Assembly (NCBI GenBank): GCA_003023785.1
Contig: PXRS01000076.1
Span: 1-64,000 of the forward strand
DNA from: Halobacteriales archaeon QS_5_68_33
GTDB lineage: Archaea; Halobacteriota; Halobacteria; Halobacteriales; Haloarculaceae
Direction: 5' to 3'
Length of the DNA: 64,000 nt
Part shown: piece by piece, positions 12,402 through 41,116 of the stretch
Numbering within the stretch: the stretch's first letter is position 1
Layout of the letters: each line of letters begins with the position of its first letter
Made by a program: the position numbers and the translations under genes
Notes under the pieces: generated by a model
The model's input: the letters and a program-made list of their open reading frames with translations, nothing else
What the model was told of the DNA's origin: nothing
Databases searched by the model: none

Positions 12402-12445
12402 CCCGCTTGTTCGATACCCCGACACCGACCAATAATATACTGTCC

Positions 12446-15152: not shown

Positions 15153-15198
15153 CGCTGCCGGAACGGTCGCTGTCCCGCGTCTGTGCGTTCGACGGGCG

Positions 15199-16347: not shown

Positions 16348-16543
16348 CGTCCCCCCATCAGTCGGGCACACTCCCGAGCGCAAACCTGTAGCGGCACCCC
16401 TCCCCTCCGCGGGTCGACCGCTACCGTCTCCGGCGCCGCACTGTCGAGACCTGTGCGCCGATGTTGAGCATCGTGACCTGTGGCCCCGCCCGCGTGTCCG
16501 AGCCGTGATGCGAACCGGGGTGGGCGCCCGTGTTTCGAGGCGG

Positions 16544-18769: not shown

Positions 18770-20052
18770 ACGTACCCCAGTTCCTCGAGCCGGTCCTCGA
18801 CGTCGTCGTCGAGGCCCGTCTTCCGTTCTCGGATGACGTCGAGGTCGACGTCCGACCTGGCCAGGAAGGCGTCGACCGTCGATTCGAGATCCGTCATCGC
18901 TTCGGGGTCTTCGACCGACGTCGACTCCTCCGGGTCGGTTCGGAGGTCGTACAGCTCGCGGTTCTCGACCGTCCAGCGCTCGTCGTGGTAGGATCTGATG
19001 AACTTGTGACGGTCGGTCCGGACGCCGGCGTAGCTCCGCTCGTGCAGTGGGGAGTGGTTCAGCAGTATCGCGCGCCGACTCGTTCCATCGACCGGTTCCC
19101 CCTCCCAGTTGTCGGGGACCGACAGGCCCAGTTCCCGCAGAATCGTCGGCGCGAGGTCGATGTGTCGGACGTTGCTCTCCGTGACGGGGCGGTCCAGGTT
19201 CCTGGTGAAAAGCGGTGTCATCACGCACTCGTCGTACAGTTGGGCGTGGCCGTGGTAGCCGTGGCCGAACTCCTCGCCGTGGTCGCCGGTCACCACGACA
19301 ACCGCCTCGTCGTCGATGAACTCAAGGACCGTCGACAGCCGCTCGTCCAGCCGCTTGACACACTGGTCGTAGAGCTCTCGCAGCGTCGCCAGTATCGACG
19401 GGGTACACCTGTCGCGGACGTGGTAGTCGACCAGCGTCCGGTAGGTCTCGTACAGTCCGACCCCCCGTGCCTTCCTGACCCCTGTGAAGTAGGGGCCGTG
19501 GAGGTCCATGAGGTGGACCCACAGGAATCGCGGTCCGCCCTGTCGCCGGTACCACCGCCGCGCCCGGGTCGCGACGTCGGTCGCGTTGACCCGCTGTTTC
19601 AACCGTACCAGTCGCTGTGCCCGGTCGAACACGCTGTAGCGCGGCCCCGCCAGGTCCATCTCGGTCGTCATCCCGTCGTTCCAGAAGTGGTCGAAGTGAC
19701 CGTCCCACTTCGCCAGAAACGGGTTCGACGCGACGACGCCTCCCGTCGCGTACCCCTGTTCGCCGAGGATCGCCGGCAACGATCGCGTACCCGACCGGAC
19801 CAGTCCATCCGGGTCGTAGGCTTGGACGAGGTGCTGGCTCGCCAGCAACGGCGGGAACGCGCCGTTGGTCGAGGCCGAGTGGCTGACGGCCGTCGACCGC
19901 TCGTACGCCCCGTCTTCGGCCATCGCGCGGAGCGCCGGCATGTCCGCGACCGCGTCAGCCCGCCAGGCGTCGACCGTGACGAGGACGACGTCTCTGGCGT
20001 TGCGGGGTTCGCGCTCCTCGCTCATGGTTTTTTCCCGTGGTGTGTCGTTCAT
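18766..20052 (-). CDS. Alkaline-phosphatase-superfamily (sulfatase-like) enzyme
   Basis: Sulfatase/phosphodiesterase-fold hydrolase, 428 residues. Metal-binding landmarks are VLVTVDAWRAD near the N-terminus and VVVTGDHGEEFGHGYHGH (Asp-His metal site). The nucleophile position lies in SASTNGAFPPLL: there is no C/S-x-P-x-R sulfatase signature, so formylglycine-dependent sulfatase activity is unlikely; phosphodiesterase or phospho-group transferase activity is more plausible. It ends RLEELGYV, a tail shared with three other proteins in the cluster. The ATG at 20052 overlaps the stop of the upstream gene; MSEEREP at 20025 is an alternative start. It likely tailors the surface glycan. Confidence 0.85.
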   Translation of the reverse strand: MNDTPREKTMSEEREPRNARDVVLVTVDAWRADAVADMPALRAMAEDGAYERSTAVSHSASTNGAFPPLLASQHLVQAYDPDGLVRSGTRSLPAILGEQGYATGGVVASNPFLAKWDGHFDHFWNDGMTTEMDLAGPRYSVFDRAQRLVRLKQRVNATDVATRARRWYRRQGGPRFLWVHLMDLHGPYFTGVRKARGVGLYETYRTLVDYHVRDRCTPSILATLRELYDQCVKRLDERLSTVLEFIDDEAVVVVTGDHGEEFGHGYHGHAQLYDECVMTPLFTRNLDRPVTESNVRHIDLAPTILRELGLSVPDNWEGEPVDGTSRRAILLNHSPLHERSYAGVRTDRHKFIRSYHDERWTVENRELYDLRTDPEESTSVEDPEAMTDLESTVDAFLARSDVDLDVIRERKTGLDDDVEDRLEELGYV

Positions 20053-21674: not shown

Positions 21675-22995
21675 CGTCGCCCTCCGAGAGCAGCCGGTAG
21701 TACTCGTCGACCGACTGTTCCTTGGTGAACTGTGCCTCGAACGCCTCGCGGGCGTTGGCTCCCTGGCGTGCCACCAAGTCAGGGTCGGTCCGCCACCGCT
21801 CGATGGCCCGTCGCATCCCCTCGACGTCGCCCTGCGTGACCTGTTCGCCGGCGTCGTATCGCTCGACGATTCGCGCCTCATCGTCGTCGGGATGGGATAT
21901 CACCAGCACGGGCTGGCCGGCCGCCAGGGAGGTGTACAGTTTGCTCGAGACACAGAGGCCTCTCATGCCCTCGCTGACGGAGACGACCGAGACGTCACCG
22001 CAGGTCAGGGTGTGGGGGAGAATATCGATGTCCTGATACGGCAGGAACCGCACGGTGTCGTCGGTGAGACCGTGCAGTTCCGCCCGGTCGACGACCGCGT
22101 CTTTCCCATCGCCCTCCCCGATGATGAGAAACCGCACGGGGTCGTCCTCGAAGGCAGTCGCGGCCTCGACGACCGTCGCCAGGTCGTGGTTCGCGCCGAT
22201 GTTCCCCGAATAGACGAGGGTGAACCGATCGACGAGCCCGTGTTCCTCGCTGAACGGGTTTTCCGCCTTCGCCTTCGGTTCGATGAACTCGCCGTCGGCC
22301 CAGTTGTCGATGACCGCGACCTTCCCGGCGTCGAACCCCTCGCCCGCGGCCGTCGCGATCCGGTCACGCATGACTTCTCCGAGCGCGACGACGCTGGCGG
22401 CGTTCCGGAAGACGTAGCTGTTCACGGCCGTCCAGGATCGATAGACGAGGCCGCTGTCGCTGATGTACCCCGCCGCGGCGATCACGTCCGGGTAGAGGTC
22501 ATAGACGACGTACGTGTACTCCCACCCCTTGTACCGGCAGAGCAGCCACATTGCCGGCGGCAAAAACGGGGGGTTCGAGACGAAGAGGAGTTCGCGGTCG
22601 TCCGTCCGGTCGCGGGCGAGCTGGCAGGTCATCCAGACGGTGAACACGACCCAGTTGAACAGCCGCCGGGGGAGCGACGTCTGCCGGACCTGCGGTGCAC
22701 GGATGCGCCGTACCTCGACGCCCTCGTGGAAGTCCCGCACCGGCTGTTTCTCGTAGTCGCCGCTGTGGTAGTTGGGCTGGCCCGTGTAGACCGTCAGGTC
22801 CAGTCCGCGCTCGGCGAGCCCGGTCGCCAGGTCGGTCATGAGCTGTCCCGTCGAGGCCGTGTCGGGGTGGAAGTACTCTGTGACGAGGACGAACTCCGTC
22901 GACCCCGCGTCGGTGCGCTCAACGTCCTCGTTATCGCTCGTGGAGGAGCGTGTGGAGGTTCTCTCTGACGTAGTCTCTGTCGCGGTTCGTGACAT
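21667..22995 (-). CDS. Glycosyltransferase family 4, WbuB/WcaI-like
   Basis: A 442-residue GT-B transferase. After a Ser/Thr-rich lead of about 33 residues it has the subfamily-typical FVLVTEYFHPDTASTGQL, then VYTGQPNYHSGDY and SNPPFLPPAMW, which resemble WbuB/WcaI-type enzymes adding amino- or deoxy-sugars. The donor domain has LVYSGNIGANHDLATVVEAA. The start at 22995 overlaps the upstream epimerase gene by 65 nt. I checked and found no later ATG or GTG before the conserved strand, so the long overlap appears real. It is third in the six-gene operon. Confidence 0.9.
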   Translation of the reverse strand: MSRTATETTSERTSTRSSTSDNEDVERTDAGSTEFVLVTEYFHPDTASTGQLMTDLATGLAERGLDLTVYTGQPNYHSGDYEKQPVRDFHEGVEVRRIRAPQVRQTSLPRRLFNWVVFTVWMTCQLARDRTDDRELLFVSNPPFLPPAMWLLCRYKGWEYTYVVYDLYPDVIAAAGYISDSGLVYRSWTAVNSYVFRNAASVVALGEVMRDRIATAAGEGFDAGKVAVIDNWADGEFIEPKAKAENPFSEEHGLVDRFTLVYSGNIGANHDLATVVEAATAFEDDPVRFLIIGEGDGKDAVVDRAELHGLTDDTVRFLPYQDIDILPHTLTCGDVSVVSVSEGMRGLCVSSKLYTSLAAGQPVLVISHPDDDEARIVERYDAGEQVTQGDVEGMRRAIERWRTDPDLVARQGANAREAFEAQFTKEQSVDEYYRLLSEGDDV

Positions 22996-23950
22996 ACCAA
23001 TCGATAGTTTCGTCGAGGCCGTCCTGCAGCGTGTACTGCGGTTCCCAGCCGAGCAGTTCCTCCGCGCGGCTCGTGTCGGCGGCCCGGTGTCGGACGCCGA
23101 CCGGCTTGTCGGTCATTCGGTCGATCTCCTCGGGCTCCCGGTCGAGGGCTTGGAAGATCGATTCGGCGACTTCGTTGATAGTTATGTACCGACTGATGCC
23201 CGCGTTGACCGGGGTCGCATCGGTGACGTTCTCGGCAGCCAGCCGCAGCGCTCGCGTGATGTCTTTCACGTAGGTGAAGTTACGTGTCTGCTCGCCGTCC
23301 CCCCAGATCCGGAACGGATCCTGGCCGGCGTAGGCCTTGGCCAGCAGTGCGATTATCGCGTGGGTCTCGTTCTCGCGGGGGCCGTAAGCAGTGAAGATGC
23401 GGACGATGCTCGCGTCGATGTCGTGTTGCTCGCTGTAGGCCATCAGCGAGCGTTCGCCCATGAGTTTCGCCCAGCCGTACACCTCGTCGGCATAGGCGCC
23501 CCCGCGCTCCTCGAAGCTCACCATGTCCTCGCGCAGGCGCCGCTTTTCCTGCTGGATGTCCGTCGGATATGTACACGCCGAGGAAGCGAACCCGATCCGG
23601 TCGACGCCGTTTCGCGCGGCCGCCTCGAAGACAACGTTGTCCAGCGCCATGTTCGTCGCACAGTTGGCCGGGTAGTTCGCGATGTACCCTCGCCCACCGT
23701 GGTCCGCGGCAAGGTGGAACACGGTGTCGATCCCCTCGGTGGCCTCCTCGGCGACGCTCATCCGCTTGAGGTTTCCTTCGAGGACCTCGATCTCACCGTC
23801 GAGCGCGGCCAGGTTCTCGCGCTCACCGCTGGAGAAGTCGTCAGCGACGCGGACCTCCGCGCCTTCCGCGGCGAGGTCCTCGACGAGGTGGGACCCGATG
23901 AACGACGCGCCGCCGGTCACGAGGACGTGCTCGTCGGTCCACTCGCTCAT
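22931..23950 (-). CDS. NAD-dependent nucleotide-sugar epimerase/dehydratase (extended SDR) I
   Basis: Extended short-chain dehydrogenase, 339 residues. NAD-binding motif VTGGASFIGSHL lies at the N-terminus. Catalytic residues are in SSACTYP (Ser) and VYGWAKLMGE (Tyr-x3-Lys). The SSACxYP and YGxxK context resembles GDP-mannose 3,5-epimerases and UDP-hexose 4-epimerases. ATG at 23950 overlaps the stop of the upstream paralog (ATGA), so the pair is probably translated together. It likely makes a nucleotide-sugar donor for the adjoining glycosyltransferases; exact sugar unknown. Confidence 0.92.
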   Translation of the reverse strand: MSEWTDEHVLVTGGASFIGSHLVEDLAAEGAEVRVADDFSSGERENLAALDGEIEVLEGNLKRMSVAEEATEGIDTVFHLAADHGGRGYIANYPANCATNMALDNVVFEAAARNGVDRIGFASSACTYPTDIQQEKRRLREDMVSFEERGGAYADEVYGWAKLMGERSLMAYSEQHDIDASIVRIFTAYGPRENETHAIIALLAKAYAGQDPFRIWGDGEQTRNFTYVKDITRALRLAAENVTDATPVNAGISRYITINEVAESIFQALDREPEEIDRMTDKPVGVRHRAADTSRAEELLGWEPQYTLQDGLDETIDWYVTNRDRDYVRENLHTLLHER

Positions 23951-24963
23951 CGTGCACCCCCGTCGGCGGCCAGCGCAGCACGGGTCCCCTCGAGTTCGGC
24001 CTCGGCCCACCGGTAAACCGTCCGGAGTCCCTCCTCGAGCGGAACCCGGGGCTCCCAGTCGAACTCCTCGCGCATCCTCGTCATGTCGCAGGCGTACTTG
24101 TCGGTGCCCGTCGGTTTCGACCGGTCGTGCTCGATGCTGAGGTCCTTGCCGCTGATATCGATGATCGTCTCGGCGAGTTCGTTCATCGAGACGACCTCCT
24201 TCGAGTTCCCCAGGTTGATCGCCTCACCGTCGCCCTTTTGCTCGATCGTCTCGACCATGCCCTCGACGAGGTCGGTCACGTAGATGAACCCGCGCTGCTG
24301 GGTGCCGTCGCCGAACAGTTCGATCGCGTCGCCGTCTTCGGCCTCGATGACCTTGCGACACAGCGACGGGATGACGTGGCTGCTGTCGGGGTCGAGGCTC
24401 TCCCGGGGGCCATAGCAGTTGAAGATGCGCACGCTGCTGGTGGCGATGTCGCAGTCCTCGCTGTAGGCCCGGCAGGCGACTTCGCCCAGGACCTTTGCCC
24501 ACCCGTAGGTGCTGTGTGGGTTCGCCGGGACCGCCTGGTCCTCGCTGAAGAGATGCAGGTCGTCGTTTTGCTGGCGGTAGATACAGGCGCTGGAAGCAAA
24601 CAGGAAGCGGTCGACGTCAGTGACGCGGGCGGCTTCGAGCATGTGCTGGTTCATGAGCACGCTCGGGGTGAGACCGCCGACGTTCTCGCGTTTGATGTAG
24701 TGGATACCCCCGACGCTGGCCGCGAGGTGAAAGACATGGTCGACGCCCTCGACGGCCCGGAGACACCCTCTCTGGGTTGTCAGATCGACCGGTCGGACCT
24801 CGATATCGTGCTCGAGGTGGTCGATGTTTTCGCGGTCGCCCCGCGAGAAGTTATCGGCCACGACGACGTCCATACCGCGGTCGACGAGCCGCTCCGTCAA
24901 GTGTGATCCGATGAATCCCGCGCCGCCCGTTATCACTGCGCTTCCGTTTTCGAGCGTTGGCAT
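23947..24963 (-). CDS. NAD-dependent nucleotide-sugar epimerase/dehydratase (extended SDR) II
   Basis: Extended SDR, 338 residues, paralogous to the following gene. It has VITGGAGFIGSHL for NAD binding, SSACIYR and TYGWAKVLGE as the Ser-Tyr-Lys catalytic set, and RIFNCYGPRESL, typical of GDP-mannose epimerase or UDP-glucose/glucuronate epimerase families. First gene of the six-gene overlapping minus-strand operon. The start MPTLENGSAVITGG at 24963 places the Rossmann strand directly at the N-terminus. Two related SDRs in tandem suggest consecutive steps or two alternative donors. Confidence 0.92.
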   Translation of the reverse strand: MPTLENGSAVITGGAGFIGSHLTERLVDRGMDVVVADNFSRGDRENIDHLEHDIEVRPVDLTTQRGCLRAVEGVDHVFHLAASVGGIHYIKRENVGGLTPSVLMNQHMLEAARVTDVDRFLFASSACIYRQQNDDLHLFSEDQAVPANPHSTYGWAKVLGEVACRAYSEDCDIATSSVRIFNCYGPRESLDPDSSHVIPSLCRKVIEAEDGDAIELFGDGTQQRGFIYVTDLVEGMVETIEQKGDGEAINLGNSKEVVSMNELAETIIDISGKDLSIEHDRSKPTGTDKYACDMTRMREEFDWEPRVPLEEGLRTVYRWAEAELEGTRAALAADGGAR

Positions 24964-25381
24964 CGTTCCACACAGCGTCCCTATCGGGAAAGAGTATGCG
25001 CCTATTACCCGCTCGGCTTCCCGGGCTCGTCGGTTTAGACGCCCGTTTACCGTCGCCCGGTTTCGCTCCGTATGACGACGTGCCTGCCGGGGATCTGGTC
25101 CGTCTCGGGCCCTGACCGCCACGCCCTGGGAGCCGGTGGGGTCCGGACGCGGGTTCCCGGCGGTTCCCGTGACGCCGTCCGGGTGCGCTCAATCGCGCCC
25201 CGGGGCCCGGGATGGGGAGTCGTGGGTCGAGTTTCGACGGCCCGGTCGTCCACGGGCACCGGATCTACCCGGATCCCGCCGCTTTCGGTCCCCGGGACCC
25301 ACGGCTCGTAGCGCCCGGCCTCGTTGGTTAATTCAGGCATAACTTACCGTGTGATCGGCCAACTGATGCGATACAGCAGAG
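24964..25381. other. Divergent intergenic region upstream of the epimerase operon
   Basis: About 420 nt between the minus-strand operon and the plus-strand FG-GAP gene. It must contain promoters for both directions, but I cannot point to a convincing TATA box. It is GC-rich. A 97-codon minus-strand frame (25047-25340) has no recognisable domain and biased Arg/Pro composition, so I do not call it. Confidence 0.5.
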
Positions 25382-26533
25382 ATGTCGATGGACTTCAGAC
25401 ACGAACGAGTCGACGGGAATCCGCCGGCCGGACGCATGACGAACCTGCACGCGACGGACATCACCGGCAACGGGAAACCGGACATCGTCGTCACTGCACT
25501 CGGCGTGAACCCGCGTGTCACGGTCCCCGGCATCGGCGAACTGCAGCTCCGGTACACATCGGGTGTGATGCGACTGATCCCCTATCTCGAGACGAACGTG
25601 TTCTGGTACGAGAACGCCAGCTGGGAGCGCCACGCCGTCTCGACGACGCGGGACCTCCAGATAGGTGTTGGAAGCGCGACATGTGAGTTCGGGGAGGACG
25701 GTCGGCCGGGGCTGGTCGCGGGACAGGGGACTGGCGAGTCCGACGTCTACTGGTTCGAGTCGGGCCCGGACCCCCGCGAGCCCTGGGACCGGTACACCAT
25801 CACCGACGCTTTCCAGAAGTACCACGACTTGGCGGTGGCCGACGTGGACGACGACGGCGAACCCGAACTGGTAGGTCTCTCACAGGAGAGCGACACCCTG
25901 TTTTACTGCGATGTCCCTGCAGACCCGCGTCGCTCGCCCTGGCCCGCGGAGTGTCTGCACGTCGTCGACGACGATATCCACGCCGAGGGACTCGCAGTCG
26001 TCGATATCGACGGTGACGGCAGGACTGAAATCGTCGCCGGCCCCGCCCTCTATCACCGGACTGACGCCGGTTCCTGGGAGCGCGAGACCATCGCGACCGG
26101 TTGGGAGTATACGCGAGTTGCCGTGGGTGACCTTGACGGCGACGGTGAGCACGAGGTCGTCCTCTCGGAAGGGGACTCCCCCGCACTCGGGACTCGGCCG
26201 GGACGCGTCGCGGTGCTGGACCCGCCGGACTGGGAGCCGACGTTCCTGCGCGAGGGGATGTACTGCCCGCACAGCCTCCAGGTCGCTGACTTCGACGGCG
26301 ACGGCCGCCTCGACGTCTTCGTGGCCGAGATGGGACTGTTCGACAACGACGACCCCGCGGGGCTGGTCTTTCGGAACCTGGACGACGGCGAATTCGAGGA
26401 GCACGTCGTCAGTCGCGGGATTCCGACGCACGAGGCGAAGGCGGTCGACCTGACGGGTGACGGCAGCCCGGACATCGTCGGTAAATCCTACGAACCGACC
26501 GCACACGTCGACGTCTGGTACAACGAAACCTGA
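25382..26533 (+). CDS. FG-GAP/VCBS-repeat beta-propeller protein
   Basis: A 383-residue protein with multiple FG-GAP/VCBS-type repeats, each with a calcium-binding-like D-x-D-x-D-G loop: DITGNGKPDIV, ADVDDDGEPELVG, VDIDGDGRTEIVAG, GDLDGDGEHEVV, ADFDGDGRLDVF and VDLTGDGSPDIVG. These build an integrin-like beta-propeller. No signal peptide is seen at either nearby ATG (25382 or 25388), unusual for a fold normally found outside the cell. It may bind polysaccharide or another protein. It is divergent from the epimerase operon and precedes the DUF1616 gene. Confidence 0.85.
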   Translation: MSMDFRHERVDGNPPAGRMTNLHATDITGNGKPDIVVTALGVNPRVTVPGIGELQLRYTSGVMRLIPYLETNVFWYENASWERHAVSTTRDLQIGVGSATCEFGEDGRPGLVAGQGTGESDVYWFESGPDPREPWDRYTITDAFQKYHDLAVADVDDDGEPELVGLSQESDTLFYCDVPADPRRSPWPAECLHVVDDDIHAEGLAVVDIDGDGRTEIVAGPALYHRTDAGSWERETIATGWEYTRVAVGDLDGDGEHEVVLSEGDSPALGTRPGRVAVLDPPDWEPTFLREGMYCPHSLQVADFDGDGRLDVFVAEMGLFDNDDPAGLVFRNLDDGEFEEHVVSRGIPTHEAKAVDLTGDGSPDIVGKSYEPTAHVDVWYNET

Positions 26534-29471: not shown

Positions 29472-29517
29472 GGTGGAGGACGCTCGTCACGCACTCAAAG
29501 AGCCTCCAGCCACTTGA

Positions 29518-29594
29518 TACGGTCGGTTGTGGATCAGTTCCGGATTCGTCGGACCGGTCGGCGAAATACCGGTAAACCGGTCCAACCGACCGTA
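29518..29594. repeat. Dispersed palindromic element, family 1, copy C
   Basis: A 77-bp element with ends TACGGTCGGTTGT and CCAACCGACCGTA. Its interior is inverted relative to copies A, D and F (GGATCAGTTCCGGATTCG on the left side). TGA directly precedes the left end. It lies between divergent genes, so termination is not its only possible role. Confidence 0.85.
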
Positions 29595-29804
29595 CGAGGC
29601 GTCCCAGGCACGGCTCCGCCGACAGCCGGTACGGCAGACCTCGACCGGGTCTCGGCGGTAGATCGCACGTCGCCATTCACGCCCCGTAGCCGGCGTCCGA
29701 ACTGAGCCCTTCCAGGTTATGCGGTGTCTAATAATGAGGTCTGTGCAGGAAAAGCGAACACCGAGACTCGATGAGTGCTATTGAGTACGGGACAGTCGCG
29801 ATCG

Positions 29805-29840: not shown

Positions 29841-30024
29841 ACTTTCCGCGTGTGCGTGAGGCGGTGGGATCTGTCGGTCATACCGGATCTCCGGCAGGGG
29901 TCCCACAGTTGCGACAGCAGTCGTCCGACCGGACGACGAGAGCAGACGTGGTCATCGACAGCCGTAAAGGTGTGACGTCGGACCGTACTTGTATCACCGG
30001 GAACGGGACCGGATACCGAGAGCG

Positions 30025-31527
30025 ATGAGGGACCGATTGCGGTCGTTTATCAGGCGACTGGTTCCGAGGGGGGATGTCCTCGAGCAGACAATAATGAGCG
30101 GCGCGTGGGGCGGGTTGCTGAACGTCTTCTCGCGGGGACTGCAACTGGGGATGCTGGTCCTGCTCGCGAACCTCCTCAAACCGGCGGATTTTGGACTGCT
30201 CGGGATCGGCTTGTTGGTGTTGAGCGGTCTGCGGAACTTCACCACGATGGGGTTGGACGAGGCGGTCATTCAGCGCGAGGAGGACGACGTCAACCGATAT
30301 CTGAACACGGTATGGGGGCTGGAACTGCTCCGCGGGTCCCTGCTCGCGGCGGTGCTCCTGGCGCTCGCGCCGGTCATCGGGTCGGTGTTCGGTGAACCGC
30401 GCGCGCCGGATGTCGTTCGGGTGCTCGCGGCCTCGCCGCTGTTGATGGCGCTTCGTAACCCCGCTGTGGTGTATTTCAGGAAGCGACTCGACTTCCACCG
30501 GGAGTTCGCCTACCAGATGAGCGGCTCCGTCTCGCGCTTCGTCGTTTCCGTCGGGTGGGCGCTGGTTTCCCCGACGGTGTGGGCACTCGTGTTCGGGCTG
30601 CTTGCGTCCGAGGCCATCAAATCGGTCTTTTCGTTCGTCGCTCACGAATACCGGCCGCGGCCGGCGCTCGACCGCGAGCGGGCGGCGGAACTCATCGGCT
30701 ACGGCAAGTGGCTCACGGGTAATTCGATCCTGTATTTTCTCTACAGCGAGGGCGATGACGCCGTCGTCGGGTGGCTCCTCACGTCGACGATGCTCGGGTT
30801 CTACCAGACCGCCTACCGGCTGTCGAACGCGCCGGCGACCGAGATCTCGCAGGTGATCGGCAAGGTCATGTTTCCGGCATTCTCGACGTTGCAGGACGAC
30901 CCCGCAGCGCTCCGTATGGCCTACTACCGGGTGTTACAGACGTCGATGTTCGTCGCCTGCCCGCTCGCGTTCGGTATCGTCGCCGTCGCCGAGGTGTTCG
31001 TCCCGACGTTCATGGGCGAGGAATGGCTGCCGATGATCACGGCGATGCAGCTTCTGGCGGTCTACGGCCTCCTCAGGTCGCTCGGGAAGACGATGAGCCC
31101 GCTCTGGAAAGCGATCGGCCGTCCGGACTACGTCACGAAACTCTCGCTGTTGCGGGTCACACTCATAGCCGTGTTGATCGTTCCGGTGACGAACGCTTAC
31201 GGCATCGAAGGGGTTGCGGGGCTCATCGTCGGGATATTCGTGTTCCCCATGATCCCGCTGGACACGTACCTGATAATCGAGTCGATCGACGGATCCTACC
31301 GGCGGTTCGTCCGGGAACTCGCGTATCCCATGGTCGCAAGCGTTCTCATGTACGGTGCGGTCACGGCTGTCCGCGAGGAGCTGGCCCTCGGCGCGGGCGT
31401 TCTCGAGTTCGTGTTGCTCGTCGTCGTGGGCATCGTCTCTTACGTGGCGGTCGTCGTCGCGCTCGCGTTCAAGTTCGAGTGGGGCATCGAGGACAACATC
31501 CGGGAGATCGTCGACACCGTCGGGTGA
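30025..31527 (+). CDS. Oligosaccharide flippase (Wzx/PST family)
   Basis: Polysaccharide-transporter/MOP-superfamily flippase that moves lipid-linked oligosaccharides across the cytoplasmic membrane, 500 residues. About 12-14 hydrophobic segments are visible. The N-terminus IMSGAWGGLLNVFSRGLQL and the following LKPADFGLLGIGLLVLSG are typical for the family. A central block reads VGWLLTSTMLGFYQTAYRL. The ATG at 30025 (MRDRLRSFIRR) is preferred; an upstream in-frame start adds only a basic, non-conserved dodecapeptide. It is the key export step expected of a cluster with several cytoplasmic glycosyltransferases and is the only flippase in the window. Confidence 0.93.
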   Translation: MRDRLRSFIRRLVPRGDVLEQTIMSGAWGGLLNVFSRGLQLGMLVLLANLLKPADFGLLGIGLLVLSGLRNFTTMGLDEAVIQREEDDVNRYLNTVWGLELLRGSLLAAVLLALAPVIGSVFGEPRAPDVVRVLAASPLLMALRNPAVVYFRKRLDFHREFAYQMSGSVSRFVVSVGWALVSPTVWALVFGLLASEAIKSVFSFVAHEYRPRPALDRERAAELIGYGKWLTGNSILYFLYSEGDDAVVGWLLTSTMLGFYQTAYRLSNAPATEISQVIGKVMFPAFSTLQDDPAALRMAYYRVLQTSMFVACPLAFGIVAVAEVFVPTFMGEEWLPMITAMQLLAVYGLLRSLGKTMSPLWKAIGRPDYVTKLSLLRVTLIAVLIVPVTNAYGIEGVAGLIVGIFVFPMIPLDTYLIIESIDGSYRRFVRELAYPMVASVLMYGAVTAVREELALGAGVLEFVLLVVVGIVSYVAVVVALAFKFEWGIEDNIREIVDTVG

Positions 31528-31630: not shown

Positions 31631-31691
31631 TCATAGAGGTCACCGGGCGCCGACGTCACCGATGTCTCTCACCTGCGTGGCCGCCGTCTCA

Positions 31692-31769
31692 TACGGTCGG
31701 TTGTACCGGTGTACCGGTATTTCGCCGACCGATTCGACGAAATCCGGAACTGATTGACAACCGACCGTA
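31692..31769. repeat. Dispersed palindromic element, family 1, copy D
   Basis: A 78-bp, near-consensus copy with ends TACGGTCGGTTGT and ACAACCGACCGTA. Its right end directly abuts the TGA stop codon of the minus-strand GH26/alginate-lyase gene (31770-31772). It lies between that gene and the convergent flippase gene, 61 bp from the family-2 element. Confidence 0.9.
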
Positions 31770-34700
31770 TCACTCGGCGCCGTGAGTCAGTGTGACATGT
31801 CCCAGAAGCCGAATGTCGTAGTGGGGACGGCCACTGATCTCCGAGGGGTTGTCGATAGCGCCCTTGAACTCGCCCCAGTGGGCGTAGGCAAGTTCGAACG
31901 TTGAGGTGGATTCCTCGACCGACGAACCGGCGAGTCGCTCGTCGTTCCACGACCACGCCGAGGTGTCCTCCGTGTACTCCTCCAACCAGTTGAACGCTTT
32001 CCACAGCGAGGAGCCGCTTTTCCTGTCGCTCGGCGCGTTGTAGTCGTACAGTTGCGTATCGTCGTACCGCTCGAAGACCAGCAGCGACATCATCATCGCC
32101 TTCAGGTTGTAGGCGCTGTATCCGAACGCGCCGCTCCGGTGCAGTTCGTGTGTGAATACACCGTTCCTGTTCGGGTCGGCGCTTCCGTCGTAGGCGCGGC
32201 CGTCCCTGTAGTTGTTTACGAAGTCGTTCCACGGTCGCTGTTTGCCGTCGTCACACGTCCGGCACTGCCCTTTCCACATGCAACGTGCCGTCTCCATCCT
32301 GGCGTCGTCCTGGAGATACGCCGCGGACACGGTCCTGTCGGCGATGCGCCAGGCCCATTTGTTGTTGTACTCACAGAGGTCACTGTCCGGATACGGCTCG
32401 GACGCGGTGAAGGTGTCGTGTCGGTCGCTGACCCACTGCTGGAGCGCGGACTCGGCGTCGGGCGAGTCGCCACCATCCCACGGGCGTGACCCGTCATAGT
32501 TGTTCCAGGCGGCGTGGCCGCGGACGAGCGCCGCCGCGTACACGAAGGCGGGGATCGTGATGTGTTGTTCGATGGTCGTCTTGTTGTTGACGATGTCCGT
32601 CGTCGGCTCCATGTAGGTGTCATCGGCGAGACACCAGTGGTGGAGGATTTCGACGGTACGCTCGGCGTATCTGTCCTCGCCGGTGAACTGATACGCGAGG
32701 CCGCAGTCACGGGCCCACTCTGACATCCTGATGGCGTTCAGGTAGTCGTCGCGGTCGGTCGTCTGCTTGAAACGGTGGTCGCCGCCGTCGTCAGTCACCG
32801 ACCGGAGCGTGGTCGACAGCGCGGCCTTCGCGTCCGAGATGAGCTCGTCGTACGCGTCTTCCCAGGGCTGTTGCCCGTTGTCGACGCGCTGTTTCTGCGT
32901 CTGGAGCTCGCTCTCCGTAACGAAGACGTAGTTCGATGACGTGGTTTCGGTGCCGTCATCGGTGTTACCCCCGTCGTCGAAGTCTGTGGATGCGCCGCCG
33001 AAGGTACCACGGTATCGCTCCGCCGCCGCGCCGAAGTCGAACTCGCCCGCGTCAGCGAGTTCGTGGGCCGTCCCTGGCGTGTCGTGCTCGAAGTACGCGT
33101 GGAACAGCACCTCGTGGTCCTGCATCCAGTCGTACATCTTCTGGACGAAGGTGGGGTTTACGTCGCCACCCCACTCCTCCTCGTCGTTGCTGAGCCCCCA
33201 CTCGGGGATGGCAATAGGGCTGTTGACGTCCGTGGCGAGGTCCGCGATGTCGTTCAGCCCGACGCCGTCGGATCCCCACTTGTTCCCTCGACAATGATTC
33301 TCCTCCCAGACGTACTCCTGGACGGTTTTCCGGTCGGTGTCGCTCGCGGTGTCGTAATCGATCCCACCCGGCGCTTGCGCGGGCTTCTCGTAGGCGGGTG
33401 CGGAATCGTAGATGTCCGCGCCGACGATGGCGTACTCCGCGCCGGGATAGTGGGCGAGAACCTCGCTGGTCGGCATCTGTGCGGAGTGGACCAGCGGTGC
33501 CCAGACAGTCTCCAGGTCGTCGCCAAGCACCTCCCGGCAGGACTCGACGACCTGTCGGTATCCTTCGGCCCACGTCTCGGGAGACACGTCGGTACCGACC
33601 GGCGAGTACGGCGCGACCTCGATATTGAATTCGTTCCCGATCCGGAGAACCAGCGTCTCCGACGTGAACCCGTCGGCCGCGAAGTTCTCCGCCATCTCTC
33701 GGAACCTGTCGTTGTGCTCTCCGGCAGCGAGGTCGCGAAGCGCAGTCGCCTGCCCGACGTCGTCAACTTCCTCGTTGGGAAGCATCGGAATGTGGGGCAG
33801 GAATATCCGGTTTTTCCCGTTTGCGACCCACTCCGGGAAGTCACGTGTGTCGAAGTCGACGAAATTATGCCACTTGCGTTTGCCGTGACCGACCGAAGCT
33901 GCCTGTGCCTCCTCGTCGAACCACGACTCGTACGGGCCGAACTGCTCGGCGTACCAGCGCCACGCGCCGTTCGAGACGGTCCCGGGGTCAAAGACGTCGC
34001 TGTTCGACCTGTCGTTCTCGCTGTCGTCGGGCCCGCAGTCGCCGCTGGATGGGTCGAGGACGTCGCTGGTCTCGCCGGAGGGCGGGGACTGCGCCAGCCA
34101 GCCGATGAAATGCCAGTTGCCGTCGCTACTGCCCGAGTAGAACCCGCGCCCTTTCTCGTGGCTCTCGTCCTCGATGAACGCAAGGTGGTGGTCCGAGGGG
34201 TCGTGTTTGTTCAGGTGTTTGGGTTTCATGACCTGGACAAGGCGCTCGTCCGAACGGTCACTGTTTTTCTTCGGGCTGATGGATCCGCTGGTCGTCTCCG
34301 CTGGCCGACTCTGTTCGAGCCATCCGACGAAATACCACTTCCCGTTGCCGCCGGTGTAGAATCCGCGCCCCTTCTCGTGGCTCTCGTCCTCGATGAGCGC
34401 GAAGTCGTGGTCACCCGGCACGTACTGTTTCAGGTCCTCCGGCCGGTAGACCTGGATCAGACGATGCGTGGTTTCGGTTGCATCCTTCGCCGGCGTAACT
34501 GTCCCGGAAGCCGTCTCTTCCGGGCGGGTCTGTGAGAGCCACCCGGTGAATGCCCACCGGCTGGAGCTGGTTCCGGAGTAGAAGCCGCGACCACGTTCGT
34601 GCTCGTTCCGCTCGATCAACGCGAGGTGGTGGTCGCTGGGAGCGCTTCCACACAGGCCACTCGGTTTGGGCACCTGCCGCAGCCGGTGTCCATCGCTCGC

Positions 34701-34928
34701 CGAAGCCACCCCCGTTCCGATGGTCGCGATGCCTGCCGACGCACTGATTAATTTGAGCATACTTCGCCGGGATGCTCCCGACGGACTGGTTTCAGGCCCA
34801 CGAGAGGCCTGTTCGGTCCCGCTCGCGTTCAGCCGGTCTGACCCGTTGAAAGTACTGTTTAGGATACCGTTACCAAAACCGACTGTATCGATAAGCTCTT
34901 CCAACTGACGGATACGACTTCCATCCAT
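31770..34928 (-). CDS. Secreted fusion: three novel repeats, GH26-like domain, alginate lyase domain
   Basis: A 1052-residue exported protein. A twin-arginine signal (RRSMLKLISASAG, Arg54-Arg55) follows an unusual 50-residue lead. Three ~73-residue repeats begin near residues 83, 157 and 230, each with HHLA-IE--EHE-GRGFY-G then FxGWL-Q. I do not recognise this repeat; carbohydrate binding is a guess. Residues about 320-645 resemble a GH26-type (beta/alpha)8 domain, with candidate acid/base Glu433 (RIGNEFN) and nucleophile Glu576 (IPEWGLS). Residues about 667-1050 resemble the alginate-lyase family domain (ADRTVSAAYLQDD, LYDYNAPSDRKSG), also present in the gene at 35411. It likely cleaves a mannose- or uronate-containing polysaccharide outside the cell. 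The stop codon abuts repeat copy D. Confidence 0.8.
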   Translation of the reverse strand: MDGSRIRQLEELIDTVGFGNGILNSTFNGSDRLNASGTEQASRGPETSPSGASRRSMLKLISASAGIATIGTGVASASDGHRLRQVPKPSGLCGSAPSDHHLALIERNEHERGRGFYSGTSSSRWAFTGWLSQTRPEETASGTVTPAKDATETTHRLIQVYRPEDLKQYVPGDHDFALIEDESHEKGRGFYTGGNGKWYFVGWLEQSRPAETTSGSISPKKNSDRSDERLVQVMKPKHLNKHDPSDHHLAFIEDESHEKGRGFYSGSSDGNWHFIGWLAQSPPSGETSDVLDPSSGDCGPDDSENDRSNSDVFDPGTVSNGAWRWYAEQFGPYESWFDEEAQAASVGHGKRKWHNFVDFDTRDFPEWVANGKNRIFLPHIPMLPNEEVDDVGQATALRDLAAGEHNDRFREMAENFAADGFTSETLVLRIGNEFNIEVAPYSPVGTDVSPETWAEGYRQVVESCREVLGDDLETVWAPLVHSAQMPTSEVLAHYPGAEYAIVGADIYDSAPAYEKPAQAPGGIDYDTASDTDRKTVQEYVWEENHCRGNKWGSDGVGLNDIADLATDVNSPIAIPEWGLSNDEEEWGGDVNPTFVQKMYDWMQDHEVLFHAYFEHDTPGTAHELADAGEFDFGAAAERYRGTFGGASTDFDDGGNTDDGTETTSSNYVFVTESELQTQKQRVDNGQQPWEDAYDELISDAKAALSTTLRSVTDDGGDHRFKQTTDRDDYLNAIRMSEWARDCGLAYQFTGEDRYAERTVEILHHWCLADDTYMEPTTDIVNNKTTIEQHITIPAFVYAAALVRGHAAWNNYDGSRPWDGGDSPDAESALQQWVSDRHDTFTASEPYPDSDLCEYNNKWAWRIADRTVSAAYLQDDARMETARCMWKGQCRTCDDGKQRPWNDFVNNYRDGRAYDGSADPNRNGVFTHELHRSGAFGYSAYNLKAMMMSLLVFERYDDTQLYDYNAPSDRKSGSSLWKAFNWLEEYTEDTSAWSWNDERLAGSSVEESTSTFELAYAHWGEFKGAIDNPSEISGRPHYDIRLLGHVTLTHGAE

Positions 34929-35410: not shown

Positions 35411-36871
35411 TTATCCGTCCGAGAGGTCGAATCGGTTCGCGTGAGTCAGCGAGGTCCAGCCGAGGTGTCTGATGTCGTACGTCGGTCGACCGGCCGACCG
35501 AACCACGCTGAGGTACTCGGGGCTTTCCCACAGCGAGTGGGCGATCTCGAACACCGATGCGTAGGTTTTCATCTCGAAGTTCGTCACGCTGTCCGACCCT
35601 TTCCCCCACTGCCACCGCGAAGGTAATTTCATGTACGGGCTCATGAATTCGAACAGCTTTCTAAGCGTCGACCCGTCTCCCGGGTCCGTCGGTGCGTTGT
35701 AGCCGTACAGGTCGACGTCGTGCTGTCGTGCGACCTCCGCGGTCATCGTCAGCGCCTTCATGCCGTAGACGTGATAGCCGAACCCGTCTTCACGCGCCAG
35801 CTCGCGTTTGAGATACCCTTTCCCGGACAAGGACGGTCTGTACTGGCTCCAGGGCCGGGGTCGCTCCTTGTCGTGGGCGACGGTTTCGCACTTCCCTCGC
35901 CACATGCAAAACGCCTTCTCCAGGCGAGACTGGTCGTCGAGATAGCTCGCCGCACTCGCGAGCGTGGCGATGCGCCACGCCCATATATTGTTGTACTGGT
36001 AGTACTTCGGAGCGGGGATCGAACTGACGAACGAGCCGACCCAGTCGGCAAACGTCGCTTCGAGGTCGTCGCCGGTCTTCTCCGTCCAGTACGGGTGGCC
36101 GTCGAGGAAGGCGGCACCGTACCACAGCTTCGGTATCGTGACGAACAGCTCGATCCCGGTGTTGTTGTCCGCCATGTTGCCGTCGGGTTTCATCCGCGTT
36201 TCCGGGTCGTGACACCAGTGGTACAGCAGGTCGATGGCCCGTTCGGCGTACTCGTCCTGTCCCGTGAACCAGTAGGCGAGTGCCGTGTCCCGGACGGCCG
36301 TGGTCATGTCGATCGCCGCGTGGTAGTCGTGGCGGTTCTCGTCTTTCCCGAACCTGTGTGGGTCGTCCCAGTTCGGGGCGCCGTCGTCAACGACGCTGCG
36401 CGCCTCCATCTCGAGCGCCTCGTCGGCGTCACGGATCGCCCGGGTGTACGCGTTGACCCACGGTTTCCGGCCGTCCCTGACGCGCTCGGCGACGGCCTTC
36501 AGCTCGTCGTGCCCGACGTACACGTAGTGGTCGCGAGACGGCACGGGCGTCAGTGTCGGTGTCGGCGTCGGCGACTGTCTTCCCGTCCGGCTATTCGAAC
36601 GGGTTCCGGACGTTGACGTCGGCGTCCCTGTCAGTTCCGTCTCCAGCGGGGTCGGCCGCTGGCTCTCTCCGCCGGAACCGACCCCGAAACAGCCGGTGAG
36701 ACCGGCCGTTCCTGAAGCGAGGAAGGCGAGCACCGAACGCCGACTCCTCGCGTTGTCCGATCCCCCGTCGTCCTCACCCGCTCGTTCACTCCCCGAACGC
36801 CGGTCGGTTTCTAGCTCTGCCTGGCCCCCCTCGCGACTGCTCTCCAGTTCCCGAGGGATCCCGTCGGTCAT
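35411..36871 (-). CDS. Alginate-lyase-family lipoprotein
   Basis: A 486-residue predicted lipoprotein. A Tat signal (ARSRRSVLAFLASG) ends in the lipobox GLTGC with Cys61, after an acidic lead of about 40 residues. A Thr/Pro-rich linker (TPTPTLTPVPS) precedes an alginate-lyase-family alpha/alpha-barrel domain at about residues 115-480. The domain has YWFTGQDEYAERAIDLLYHW, IWAWRIATLASAASYLDD and LYGYNAPTDPGDGSTL, and closely parallels the C-terminal domain of the fusion at 31770. Expected to degrade or edit an acidic polysaccharide at the cell surface. It shares the long pre-signal N-terminus with the fusion protein. Confidence 0.85.
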   Translation of the reverse strand: MTDGIPRELESSREGGQAELETDRRSGSERAGEDDGGSDNARSRRSVLAFLASGTAGLTGCFGVGSGGESQRPTPLETELTGTPTSTSGTRSNSRTGRQSPTPTPTLTPVPSRDHYVYVGHDELKAVAERVRDGRKPWVNAYTRAIRDADEALEMEARSVVDDGAPNWDDPHRFGKDENRHDYHAAIDMTTAVRDTALAYWFTGQDEYAERAIDLLYHWCHDPETRMKPDGNMADNNTGIELFVTIPKLWYGAAFLDGHPYWTEKTGDDLEATFADWVGSFVSSIPAPKYYQYNNIWAWRIATLASAASYLDDQSRLEKAFCMWRGKCETVAHDKERPRPWSQYRPSLSGKGYLKRELAREDGFGYHVYGMKALTMTAEVARQHDVDLYGYNAPTDPGDGSTLRKLFEFMSPYMKLPSRWQWGKGSDSVTNFEMKTYASVFEIAHSLWESPEYLSVVRSAGRPTYDIRHLGWTSLTHANRFDLSDG

Positions 36872-37115: not shown

Positions 37116-38318
37116 ATGCGAATCGCAGTCCTGTCACCTCGAAACCCGGTTCCGGTTTACACTGGGCTTCTGGAGCGGACCTACCAGACGTGTCGTTTCC
37201 TCGGTGAACGACACACGGTGAACGTCTTCTTTCCCGACGAACCGGGACGACAGGACGAGGAAGGACGAGTGCCTGACCACCAGCCGTTCGAACGGACGAA
37301 GCTAGAGTCCCCGGTCCTGGACGTTCTCGGACGCGCTGTTCCGGATTACTCCGCGCTGAAGGGGCTGTACCATACACACCCTTGGCTCTACGGGTCACTC
37401 CGCTCGACCCTCCAGCGGTTCGATCCGGACTTACTCGTCGTCGAGTTCCCATACCTGATGCCGCTGACGCGGGCTGCCAGCCGCGGCTTCGACTGTCCCG
37501 TGATCCTCAGCGAGCACAACGTGGAGTACAAGTTCGCCGAGCGACTCGATATCCCGCTGTGGCGGTTGCTCCGCCGGTTCGAGGTGCACGCTTGCAACCA
37601 GGCCGACGCCGTGTTTACCGTCTCGGAGACGGACCGCGACACCCTCGCCGCGCAACTGGACGGTGGCACCGAGGTCGGCGTCGCACCCAACGGCGTTGAC
37701 GTCGGCCGCTACCGCCCCGCCAGGGAGCGTGATTCGGCCCTCGTCCGCGAGCGGTACCAGCTCACCTCGCCGGTACTCGTGTTCCACGGCAACCTCGGGA
37801 ACGCACAGAACGCTGAGGTAGTCGACCTCCTCGTCGAGGACGTCTTCCCGGCGGTCAGGCGCGAGTTTGACGACGCCAGTCTGATGCTCCTCGGGGCCGA
37901 CCCGCCCGAGGAGACGCCTCCCGGCGTCGTCACGACCGGCGTCGTCGACGATCTCCCCGCCCACATCGCCGCGGCCGACGTCGCGGTCGCGCCCATGCTC
38001 TCGGGGTCCGGCACGAACCTGAAGATCCTGGAGTACCTGGCCACCGGCGTGCCGGTCGTGACTACACGGATCGGCGCGGAGGGACTCCCCCTCCGGCATG
38101 GGGAGACCGCGGCTCTCGCCGACCCGGCCGACGTGCCCGCGGCGACGGTGCGGTTGCTCCGCGACCCGGACCGCCGGGAGACGCTGGGGACGAACGGACG
38201 CGACCTCGCGGTATCGGAGTTCAGTTGGTCGCGGACGCTCGAACCGTACGAGCGGGCCATCGAGCGGCTGCTGGACACACACCGCGCGAGCGAAGGCATG
38301 AGGACCACGAACGCATGA
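37116..38318 (+). CDS. Glycosyltransferase family 4 (GT-B)
   Basis: A 400-residue GT-B transferase. N-terminal domain: MRIAVLSPRNPVPVYTGLLE and ILSEHNVEYKFAERL. C-terminal domain: PVLVFHGNLGNAQNAEVVDL and the pocket LSGSGTNLKILEYLATGVPV, which resembles GT4 enzymes of TIGR03087/Stp2-like type. Its stop overlaps the ATG of the next gene (ATGA at 38315), so the two form a transcriptional and translational unit. The start ATG at 37116 begins the first beta strand directly. Confidence 0.92.
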   Translation: MRIAVLSPRNPVPVYTGLLERTYQTCRFLGERHTVNVFFPDEPGRQDEEGRVPDHQPFERTKLESPVLDVLGRAVPDYSALKGLYHTHPWLYGSLRSTLQRFDPDLLVVEFPYLMPLTRAASRGFDCPVILSEHNVEYKFAERLDIPLWRLLRRFEVHACNQADAVFTVSETDRDTLAAQLDGGTEVGVAPNGVDVGRYRPARERDSALVRERYQLTSPVLVFHGNLGNAQNAEVVDLLVEDVFPAVRREFDDASLMLLGADPPEETPPGVVTTGVVDDLPAHIAAADVAVAPMLSGSGTNLKILEYLATGVPVVTTRIGAEGLPLRHGETAALADPADVPAATVRLLRDPDRRETLGTNGRDLAVSEFSWSRTLEPYERAIERLLDTHRASEGMRTTNA

Positions 38319-39658
38319 ACGTCCTGCTCATCACCGTCGATTCGCTGCGCAAAGACGCCGCTCCCCAGTTCGGGTTCGGGCGGGAACTGTTCGCGGAGAC
38401 GCTCGGCGAGGACATCCCCGAGACCCGGTTCGAGCGCGCGTTTGCGACCGGACCCGGAACCACGCCGTCGTTCCCCGCGCTCCTATCCGGCACGATGCCG
38501 CTGTCTTACGGGGGGCTGGGCCCGCTGTCTACCGACCGGCCGCGGGTGTCGTCGTTCCTGGCCGAGTCCGGCTACGGGACTGCGGGGTTTCAGTGCAACC
38601 CGTTCCTCTCGACACACTTCGAATACGACAGGGGATTCGACACCTTCGAGGACTACCAGAACCCCCTCATGGGGCTGGCGACGAAGGTGTTCCCCCGCGG
38701 CATCGAAATCAACAACCCCCGTCTCAGGCGGGTCGACGACTACCTCCACCTCACGGACGGCATTCGGAAGGGTTACCAGCTCGTCCGGGGCAAACCGCGT
38801 CCGTACGTGAGCGCGGACGTCATCACGGACGACACCATCGACTGGCTGGACCGCGCCGAGTCACCGTTTTTCTGCTGGACCCACTACATGGATGTCCACC
38901 ACCCCTGTTACCCCCCCGACGAGTACCGCGACCGCTTCGGTGTCGGTTCCGTGACCCAGTCCGATGTCGGGGAGTGGTACTCGGCGGTGCTCGACGACCC
39001 GTCGATGCTCGACGACGAACAGACCGACGCGCTCCGTCGCCTCTATCGGGCCGCGATCGCCTACACCGCGGACCAGGTGCGGCGGATCCTGACCCACCTG
39101 CGTGAGACCGGCCGCCACGAGGAGACGCTGGTCGTTCTGACCTCCGACCACGGGGAACTGTTCGGCGACTGGGGGCAGTACGGCAAACCCGAGCGGATGT
39201 ACGACGAACTCCTCCACGTGCCGCTCGTCGTCGCCAACGGCCCGGACTACCTCGACGACGCGGTCGGGGACCTGGTCAGCCTGCTCGACGTGCCGCCGCT
39301 GGTTCACGACGCCATCGGACTGCCGGTCCCCGACGCCTACGACGGCCGGCGACCGGGCGTCGACGAATCGCGGGCGTACGTCCTCGCCGAACACGAGGTG
39401 GAAGGCGACGTCGTGGTCGGCGCGCGCTCCCGAGACTGGCTCTACGAACAGGACGAGGTCCGGGACGAACGCAGACTGTACGACCTCCGGGGCGACGGCT
39501 GTCGGAGCGTCCCCGTCGAGGCACACGCAGACGCGTCCCGAACGGTCAGGCGGGCGGTCTCCGAACGGTTCGCCGACCTCGAGCTGGGAACGGACCGGTG
39601 GGAAGCGGATATCGACGGCGACGTCGAGGGCCGACTCGAGGACCTCGGATACCTCTGA
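38315..39658 (+). CDS. Sulfatase-like alkaline-phosphatase-superfamily enzyme
   Basis: A 447-residue AP-superfamily protein. The first metal strand is MNVLLITVDSLRKDAAP. The active-site turn is GPGTTPSFPALLSGTMPL, with Thr where true sulfatases have Cys or Ser followed by x-P-x-R; the formylglycine signature is absent. The second metal site is LVVLTSDHGELFGDWGQYG. It ends GRLEDLGYL, the same tail seen in three other cluster proteins. A phosphotransferase or phosphodiesterase acting on the glycan is more likely than a sulfatase. Translationally coupled to the upstream glycosyltransferase by the ATGA overlap. Confidence 0.88.
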   Translation: MNVLLITVDSLRKDAAPQFGFGRELFAETLGEDIPETRFERAFATGPGTTPSFPALLSGTMPLSYGGLGPLSTDRPRVSSFLAESGYGTAGFQCNPFLSTHFEYDRGFDTFEDYQNPLMGLATKVFPRGIEINNPRLRRVDDYLHLTDGIRKGYQLVRGKPRPYVSADVITDDTIDWLDRAESPFFCWTHYMDVHHPCYPPDEYRDRFGVGSVTQSDVGEWYSAVLDDPSMLDDEQTDALRRLYRAAIAYTADQVRRILTHLRETGRHEETLVVLTSDHGELFGDWGQYGKPERMYDELLHVPLVVANGPDYLDDAVGDLVSLLDVPPLVHDAIGLPVPDAYDGRRPGVDESRAYVLAEHEVEGDVVVGARSRDWLYEQDEVRDERRLYDLRGDGCRSVPVEAHADASRTVRRAVSERFADLELGTDRWEADIDGDVEGRLEDLGYL

Positions 39659-39691: not shown

Positions 39692-41116
39692 TCAGCTGCC
39701 GGTCGTCTCGTCGGCATACCAGCGGTGAACCATCCCTTCCTCGTCTTTGAACAGCAGCGCGGCGCTCCCGTCGTCGCCCGACTCAATAGCGAACTCACCG
39801 CCGGAGAGGCCCGTGGATGTGGCGTCGGCGTAGCGGGTGAGCCCGGAATCGACCGCCGGTCCGGGACTGCCGCCTTCGCCGTCGTAGCGCTGCATGTCGC
39901 CGAACGTCCAGATATCGCCGGTAGCGTTCGGGGAGACGGCGACGTCCGAGGACGGGCCGAAATAGTACGACGGGCCGGCCGCGTCCTTGGTTACCTCGAT
40001 CTTGGCGTTACGGACCGTCCCGTTGTTGCGCAGCAAGCCGATGATAGTGTTCCCGTTGTTGAACTCCAGCTGGACCATCGACTCCACCTCGGAGTTGGTG
40101 TTCTGGACGTAATCGAGTCGGGTGGACGCGTCGCCCTGGACCGAGACGATGGGTCCGGAAACCGACCTGACCGGTTCGAAATTGATGCCGCCGACATGGA
40201 GGTGTCCGTTGCTGCTGGCCTTGATGCGGATCGCCCGGCCCGCGGACCCGCCGATGTTGATGAATCCGATGTTGGCCTTCACTCCGCCGAAATCCGTGTA
40301 GAATACCGTATCTCCCGTTGCGTTTCCGGCGTCGATGTATCCGATCTGTGTCCCGAGGAGTGATTGCTCGCGTTCGACGAGGAACTCGCGGCCGTGGTTG
40401 GCGTCGTACCCGAAGTCAAGGTGGCCCCAGCTGGAGCCGAACGGCGACCCCCGCTCGCAGTGAACCACCGGGTCGATCCAGTCGCGAAAGGCGAGGTTCC
40501 CGATGTTGAACTGCTTCGGGTGGACTCCGCTGTCGTTGGCGAAGTGGAGTGCGGACCCGCCCGTCCGGCGCTCCGCGTCACCACCGCTTATCGTGAACGC
40601 GTCCAGCAACACGAACTTCCCGTCGGTCAGGTGAGTCACCCTGAAACCGTCGCGCTCGAGGTTGGTGAACGTGATCTCGCTCGTGTGTGCCCCCCAGCCG
40701 ACGAACTCGACGAACTGCGAGGGGACGAGCGGTTTCGCCTCCTCAACCTCCGTCGGCGGCAGGAGGACGGTCCCGTACCCTTCGCGGTCGCCGACGGCGT
40801 CGATGGCTGCGAGGGCGTCCGCGACCGGCGTCGCCGTCTCCGCCGGGTCGACCGCGTCTCCCGGGCCCAGTCCCGGCGCGATCGGCACGACGAACCCGTT
40901 CCTGGCTCGTTTGACCGTCGGATCGGTGGGCGTTTGCTGGCTGTCGGCACCCGACGACTGCAACCCGCCGTTCCCGTCGTCAGTCGCCGTCGAGGTGTCA
41001 CGGGACGTCTCGGTCTGTCCCTCGTTCGAAAGCCACTGGCCACACCCAGCGAGCCCTGCCATCGACCCGGTCAGAACTCCGAGAAAGGAGCGCCGTCCCG
41101 GATGTCCCCTTCGCAT
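39692..41116 (-). CDS. Lipoprotein with pectin-lyase-like beta-helix
   Basis: A 474-residue predicted lipoprotein. The Tat signal RRSFLGVLTGSMAG ends in lipobox GLAGC (Cys25), followed by a Thr/Ser/Asp linker. From about residue 70 to 400 the sequence has the regular short beta strands of a right-handed parallel beta-helix, for example IGNLAFRDWIDPVVHCERG and FVLLDAFTISGGDAE. No definite catalytic residues are recognised, so it may be a lyase, an epimerase or a binding protein. A C-terminal segment, SAALLFKDEEGMVHRWY, resembles tail modules of surface proteins. Last gene of the polysaccharide region, convergent with the sulfatase-like gene. Confidence 0.75.
   Translation of the reverse strand: MRRGHPGRRSFLGVLTGSMAGLAGCGQWLSNEGQTETSRDTSTATDDGNGGLQSSGADSQQTPTDPTVKRARNGFVVPIAPGLGPGDAVDPAETATPVADALAAIDAVGDREGYGTVLLPPTEVEEAKPLVPSQFVEFVGWGAHTSEITFTNLERDGFRVTHLTDGKFVLLDAFTISGGDAERRTGGSALHFANDSGVHPKQFNIGNLAFRDWIDPVVHCERGSPFGSSWGHLDFGYDANHGREFLVEREQSLLGTQIGYIDAGNATGDTVFYTDFGGVKANIGFINIGGSAGRAIRIKASSNGHLHVGGINFEPVRSVSGPIVSVQGDASTRLDYVQNTNSEVESMVQLEFNNGNTIIGLLRNNGTVRNAKIEVTKDAAGPSYYFGPSSDVAVSPNATGDIWTFGDMQRYDGEGGSPGPAVDSGLTRYADATSTGLSGGEFAIESGDDGSAALLFKDEEGMVHRWYADETTGS

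Follow-up and report, generated by a model that had tools for sequence, protein, structure and literature searches.

What does a predicted exported protein that joins two polysaccharide-degrading domains to three copies of an orphan repeat do within an exopolysaccharide (EPS) locus of a haloarchaeon? How archaea shorten, release or recycle exopolysaccharides is poorly known, and archaeal EPS pathways have been described in cited work as largely undelineated. We analyzed a 64,000-nt stretch of DNA from Halobacteriales archaeon QS_5_68_33 (hereafter, the window) in which one ORF encodes such a fusion. An earlier interpretation made from the letters alone (the sequence-only reading) had proposed a dedicated system that edits or recycles the cell's own acidic, possibly mannuronate- or mannose-containing polysaccharide. 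We favor, with a probability of roughly 0.6, a secreted, EPS-retained hydrolase and lyase that would cut the cell's own acidic polymer in the manner of AlgL or PslG. The locus offers a hydrolase–lyase pair that is open to testing and linked to conserved assembly genes. The fusion and its parts are as follows.

31770–34928, minus strand: putatively secreted repeat-GH26-PL fusion exoprotein of 1052 aa, defined by its ORF and by a full-length ortholog (P0002, 61% identical)
34695–34772, minus strand: Tat-type signal, aa 53–78 (SRRSMLKLISASAGIATIGTGVASA), with no lipobox Cys; 65% identical in the ortholog
34467–34688, minus strand: repeat 1, aa 81–154, 59% identical to repeat 1 of the ortholog
34248–34466, minus strand: repeat 2, aa 155–227, 53% identical to repeat 2 of the ortholog
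34041–34247, minus strand: repeat 3, aa 228–296, 65% identical to repeat 3 of the ortholog
32991–33980, minus strand: GH26-like catalytic domain, aa 317–646, from profile matches to GH26 structures and from relatives that pass PF02156
33630–33632, minus strand: E433, predicted acid/base, aligned with E109 of CtLic26A (17-row alignment and profile)
33201–33203, minus strand: E576, predicted nucleophile, aligned with E222 of CtLic26A (17-row alignment and profile)
31773–32933, minus strand: polysaccharide-lyase domain (PF05426, PL38/PL5-like), aa 666–1052, from Pfam and structure-profile matches
32358–32363, minus strand: N856, kept, and K857 at the position of the NNH-motif histidine (alignments)
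32118–32138, minus strand: R931 to Y937, equivalents of R292/Y298 in BoPL38 and R249/Y256 in AlgL (alignments; PMC8829089, PMC13169297)

From the N to the C terminus, the ORF encodes a long n-region, the Tat-type motif, three repeats, an acidic linker, the GH26-like domain, a short linker and the PF05426 domain. The twin-arginine motif, SRRSMLKL, can be read directly from aa 53 and is followed by no lipobox Cys, so the protein is probably set free rather than lipid-anchored. Three repeats of ~73 residues do precede two enzyme domains, as first described, and the two glutamates stand where they had been placed, in GNEFN at 431 and IPEWG at 574. The ortholog, found in a genome of another genus in the same family (G201), is 61% identical over its full length and has the same architecture, with all three repeats and both glutamates, which argues that the arrangement is more than chance. 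Identity between the two proteins is 53–65% in the repeats, 68% in the GH domain and 66% in the PL domain, and falls to 25–36% in the linkers and N terminus. The fusion is thus confirmed as a real, unusual architecture kept in two genera.

We call the first enzyme domain GH26-like because its own sequence misses PF02156 (Glyco_hydro_26) while its relatives pass: the window domain has no Pfam match to this family and the ortholog reaches only E 0.022, below the cut-off, but the four relatives tested (L012, L013, L016, L060) all exceed it. An alignment of 17 GH26-like proteins has six invariant columns, and both E433 and E576 are among them. The profile built from these 17 rows matches CtLic26A (2bvd) along its length (E 2.9e-28), with E433 opposite E109 and E576 opposite E222, which we take to be the acid/base and nucleophile of GH26, respectively; in this alignment the start of the ortholog row was mis-set, and several rows lie nearer to CtLic26A than the window domain does. 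Both glutamates are still invariant in a narrower, corrected nine-row alignment, whose listed matches are all GH26 (best, mannanase 4yn5, E 7.1e-12). The printed nine-row matches mostly end before the nucleophile, so that E576 is assigned from the 17-row alignment and the conserved PEWG motif. The GH26-like domain with its two glutamates is accordingly borne out through relatives, not by Pfam on the protein alone. The similarity is remote, the best characterized matches being a lichenase and mannanases. The domain resembles CtLic26A and the GH26 beta-mannanases in its full-length profile match and in the superposition of both glutamates, but differs from them in this remoteness, in the residue that precedes the acid/base (Asn in place of His) and in lying in an EPS locus rather than a foraging one. 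Among haloarchaeal GH26 proteins, a large clade has been noted whose homology to proven mannanases is very low (PMC10963439). As a separate observation, two haloarchaeal GH26-like proteins (L016 and L015) carry N-terminal repeated domains, which in L016 include an H-type lectin domain recognized by Pfam, another fusion to a binding module.

The module ahead of the enzyme domains had been called unrecognized, and a profile search with the repeat alone agrees: nothing in Pfam, PHROGs or PDB sequences matched it significantly. Repeats 2 and 3 are 47–50% identical to the first in protein but only 62–67% in DNA, so the triplication is old. Because the best partner of each repeat in the pairwise table of window against G201 is its positional counterpart (62, 63 and 68% identical there), all three were present before the two lineages split. 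Among 394 haloarchaeal genomes drawn from across the class, two carry it (the window genome and G201, where the repeat scores E 3e-33), and in 148 genomes of the family no further carrier was found. The repeat is therefore not a widespread new module. Pattern scans of viral contigs and GTDB contigs, which miss divergent copies, confirmed nothing. Candidate assignments to SHIRT or StrS-aminotransferase were rejected as matches below cut-off or by chance; matches at E 0.006–8 in relatives were short fragments in unrelated frames and were likewise taken as chance. Structure prediction was applied to the repeat: a single repeat modeled by AlphaFold2 from three sequences formed a beta-meander at pLDDT 67, with a best Foldseek hit of E 0.49 and no PDB fold match, and the three repeats together reached pLDDT 41.5, neither amounting to a confident fold. 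Our guess, from conserved aromatic and acidic residues and from the place of the repeats in an exported, unanchored enzyme, is that they bind the polymer or the surface; this orphan repeat may bind an acidic glycan in high salt. A resemblance to tail-fiber-type beta hairpins, and to the C terminus of the protein encoded at 39692–41116, is only an impression.

The sequence-only reading had also placed the fusion beside a glycan-assembly cluster. The surroundings hold up as such, with transferases, epimerases and a flippase:

11220–25122, no strand assigned: Gfo/Idh, GT4 and GT2 transferases, a sulfatase, PF01663 and two NAD-dependent epimerase-family genes of the EPS locus
25382–26533, plus strand: FG-GAP repeat protein; its counterpart adjoins the lyase in Halorubrum
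29989–31527, plus strand: PST-type flippase (PF13440), with a 65% identical ortholog beside the fusion in G201
35411–36871, minus strand: second PF05426 lyase (PL2), Tat lipoprotein-like (RSRRSV...TGC), Pfam E 5.7e-34, 56% identical to its G201 ortholog
37116–38318, plus strand: GT4 glycosyltransferase (annotation and comparison with the G201 locus)
38225–39658, plus strand: sulfatase-family protein (PF00884; annotation and comparison with the G201 locus)
39692–41116, minus strand: Tat lipoprotein-like gene, beside the fusion in G201 and about 57% identical there

Most genes of the EPS locus, which also holds a DUF1616 gene, have counterparts in G201, in rearranged order. The 39692–41116 protein has no Pfam or PDB match, and a suspected beta-helix fold found support from neither. 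Separately, an 894-aa ORF on the minus strand (16544–19228) is kept in G201 at 46% identity and has no Pfam match. Consecutive same-strand genes for a flippase, an FG-GAP protein, a lyase and a PF01663 protein occur in Halorubrum sodomense, Halorubrum coriense and Halorubrum cibi, where there is no fusion protein, and the same string recurs, its frames broken, in Halorubrum sp. CBA1125. Two of the Halorubrum loci were searched for a GH26 domain, and neither has one. From these strings it follows that the lyase belongs with polymer assembly. The fusion can then be described as an elaboration on an EPS-assembly lyase, seen so far in two genera. In the Halorubrum strings (L094, L095, L097, L098) the lyase is a lipoprotein. 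The L094 string continues into a beta-helix lipoprotein-like protein and a 1035-aa Tat-type beta-helix protein, recalling polymer modification of the AlgG/AlgL style.

An enzyme with these domains might instead digest foreign polysaccharide for food, be it algal or plant mannan, an alginate-like polymer or the EPS of other microbes. The GH26 mannanases of mannan-growing haloarchaea are indeed exported foraging enzymes (PMC10963439), and the window's own genome encodes a GH88-family protein elsewhere (G000:C78:5613-6566). However, the fusion gene lies within a polymer-assembly locus conserved as a block, and the annotated stretch showed neither a transporter nor a gene for uronate catabolism. 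Of the two catabolic routes searched, KduI is absent from both carrier genomes (71% complete for the window, 99% for G201) and GH88 is absent from the more complete one, which weakly disfavors feeding. We consider foraging unlikely. By comparison, synthase-dependent EPS operons each include an enzyme that degrades the polymer under synthesis (PMC8829089); here, likewise, a Tat-type motif and assembly genes occur in the same locus.

The second enzyme domain, proposed at the outset to be of alginate-lyase type, is recognized by Pfam as Alginate_lyase (PF05426, aa 706–992, E 2.8e-24), scoring 86.5 bits against a curated cut-off of 22.2. A profile of nine haloarchaeal lyase sequences matches 3nfv best (E 8.9e-26), followed by the PL38 enzyme BoPL38 (8bdq, E 1.7e-20) and, more weakly, PL5. 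N856, R931 and Y937 align with N242, R292 and Y298 of BoPL38, as counted by hand on the printed profile alignment. R931 and Y937 do not vary among 30 haloarchaeal sequences, and none of the 30 has the NNH-motif histidine, whose position is taken by Lys in the fusion and by Ile, Gln, Met or Lys in the rest. Three bacterial relatives, from Photobacterium, Vibrio and a Verrucomicrobia MAG, keep the histidine. In a midpoint-rooted tree of 15 rows, of which three are bacterial and one of those long, a branch with full support sets the haloarchaeal lyases apart on one side; this is suggestive, though not proof, of a single loss of the histidine.

In BoPL38, Y298 serves syn elimination on mannuronate and H243 is the base for anti elimination on guluronate (PMC13169297). 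A histidine of the catalytic cavity is reported to be conserved across PL5/15/17/38/39 alginate lyases and was required for the alginate activity of GAGase III (PMC12088678); by our own alignment, it would correspond to the NNH histidine. Given these roles, the missing histidine and the retained tyrosine, we infer a Tyr-driven D-uronate lyase in preference to a generic alginate lyase. Its substrate would be a D-uronate of GlcA or ManA configuration, cut by syn elimination, and an EPS containing GlcA or ManA is more likely than alginate or mannuronate.

The Lys at the histidine position could reflect a weakened or inactive lyase domain. Extended to the whole protein, this would make the fusion an EPS-binding or scaffold protein that has lost the activity of one or both catalytic domains, most probably of the lyase; the three repeats and the FG-GAP proteins of the same locus fit such a role. 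Nevertheless, both orthologs keep the two GH glutamates and the lyase Asn, Arg and Tyr, and their catalytic domains have diverged far less than their linkers and N termini (66–68% versus 25–36% identity). Moreover, the loss of the histidine is common to all haloarchaeal relatives, which fits altered specificity better than isolated decay, and we regard a purely structural role as improbable. Least probable is the view of the sequence-only reading that the domains are a true alginate or polymannuronate lyase and a mannanase acting on a mannuronate-rich self polymer, for although the PF05426 family name, the PL38/PL5 homology and the Tyr syn route that BoPL38 uses on mannuronate (PMC13169297) speak for it, the NNH histidine is found in 0 of 30 haloarchaeal sequences and 3 of 3 bacterial relatives compared, and the uronate of characterized haloarchaeal EPS is GlcA (PMC9943897).

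The reading that we prefer, cleavage of the cell's own acidic polymer, thus retains the self-polymer part of the original proposal, through the conserved locus and the Halorubrum strings, and gives up its mannuronate part. The locus would make and flip an acidic exopolysaccharide, and the fusion would leave the cell by Tat. The GH26-like domain is predicted to hydrolyze a beta-glycosidic bond of mannosyl or glucosyl type via E433 and E576, and the PL38/PL5-like domain to cleave beside a D-uronate (GlcA likelier than ManA) through a syn beta-elimination driven by Tyr937 and Arg931. All three repeats are small and beta-rich, and would probably retain the otherwise unanchored protein within the polymer or the surface layer. 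Together with the lipid-anchored lyase PL2 (35411–36871), the fusion may trim, clear or release the polymer. One haloarchaeal acidic EPS of known composition, that of Haloarcula hispanica, contains much GlcA and Man and carries heavy sulfation (PMC9943897, PMC5467301). Both a GH26-like hydrolase and a D-uronate lyase could plausibly act on a polymer of this composition. The haloarchaeal clade that lacks the NNH histidine is also a lead for a new uronate specificity. A bolder version, which we hold only tentatively, takes the repeat for a new carbohydrate-binding module and credits the His-less PF05426 clade with a new lyase specificity, for archaeal EPS that contains glucuronate; the two would combine with the GH26-like domain into a dedicated self-polysaccharide editor.

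PslG, PelA and BcsZ belong to GH families other than GH26. The fusion resembles them as a polymer-degrading enzyme encoded within a biosynthesis locus (PMC8829089), and differs from them in that they are bacterial and lack a fused lyase. In its proposed way of acting, the fusion comes closest to enzymes that cut the product of their own operon, such as AlgL and PslG. AlgL, the PL5 enzyme of the Pseudomonas alginate operon, clears alginate and needs R249 and Y256: the fusion too is a predicted exported lyase in a polymer-synthesis locus, and the required Arg and Tyr are kept (PMC8829089). Unlike the present protein, AlgL consists of a single domain, retains the NNH histidine and works in a periplasmic, synthase-dependent system; here, a GH26-like domain and repeats are fused to the lyase, the locus is archaeal and of flippase type, and the histidine is absent. 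BoPL38 and 3nfv are the best PDB matches of the lyase profile, and the positions of N242, R292 and Y298 are kept. In contrast, H243 of BoPL38 is replaced by Lys, and the context of BoPL38 is bacterial gut foraging.

A palindromic element of ~85–98 nt also lies near the fusion gene, at 31682–31779, with an inverted copy at 29515–29605; its ends are ATACGGTCGGTTGT and ACAACCGACCGTAT. Its predicted RNA fold has an energy of −50.8 kcal/mol (z −6.6). The window's own genome holds 40 distinct scored copies, drawn from 438 first-look candidates, and none was found in G201. The element at 31682 overlaps the fusion gene at its stop, and the flippase gene lies between the two inverted copies. The element looks like a MITE or REP-type sequence.
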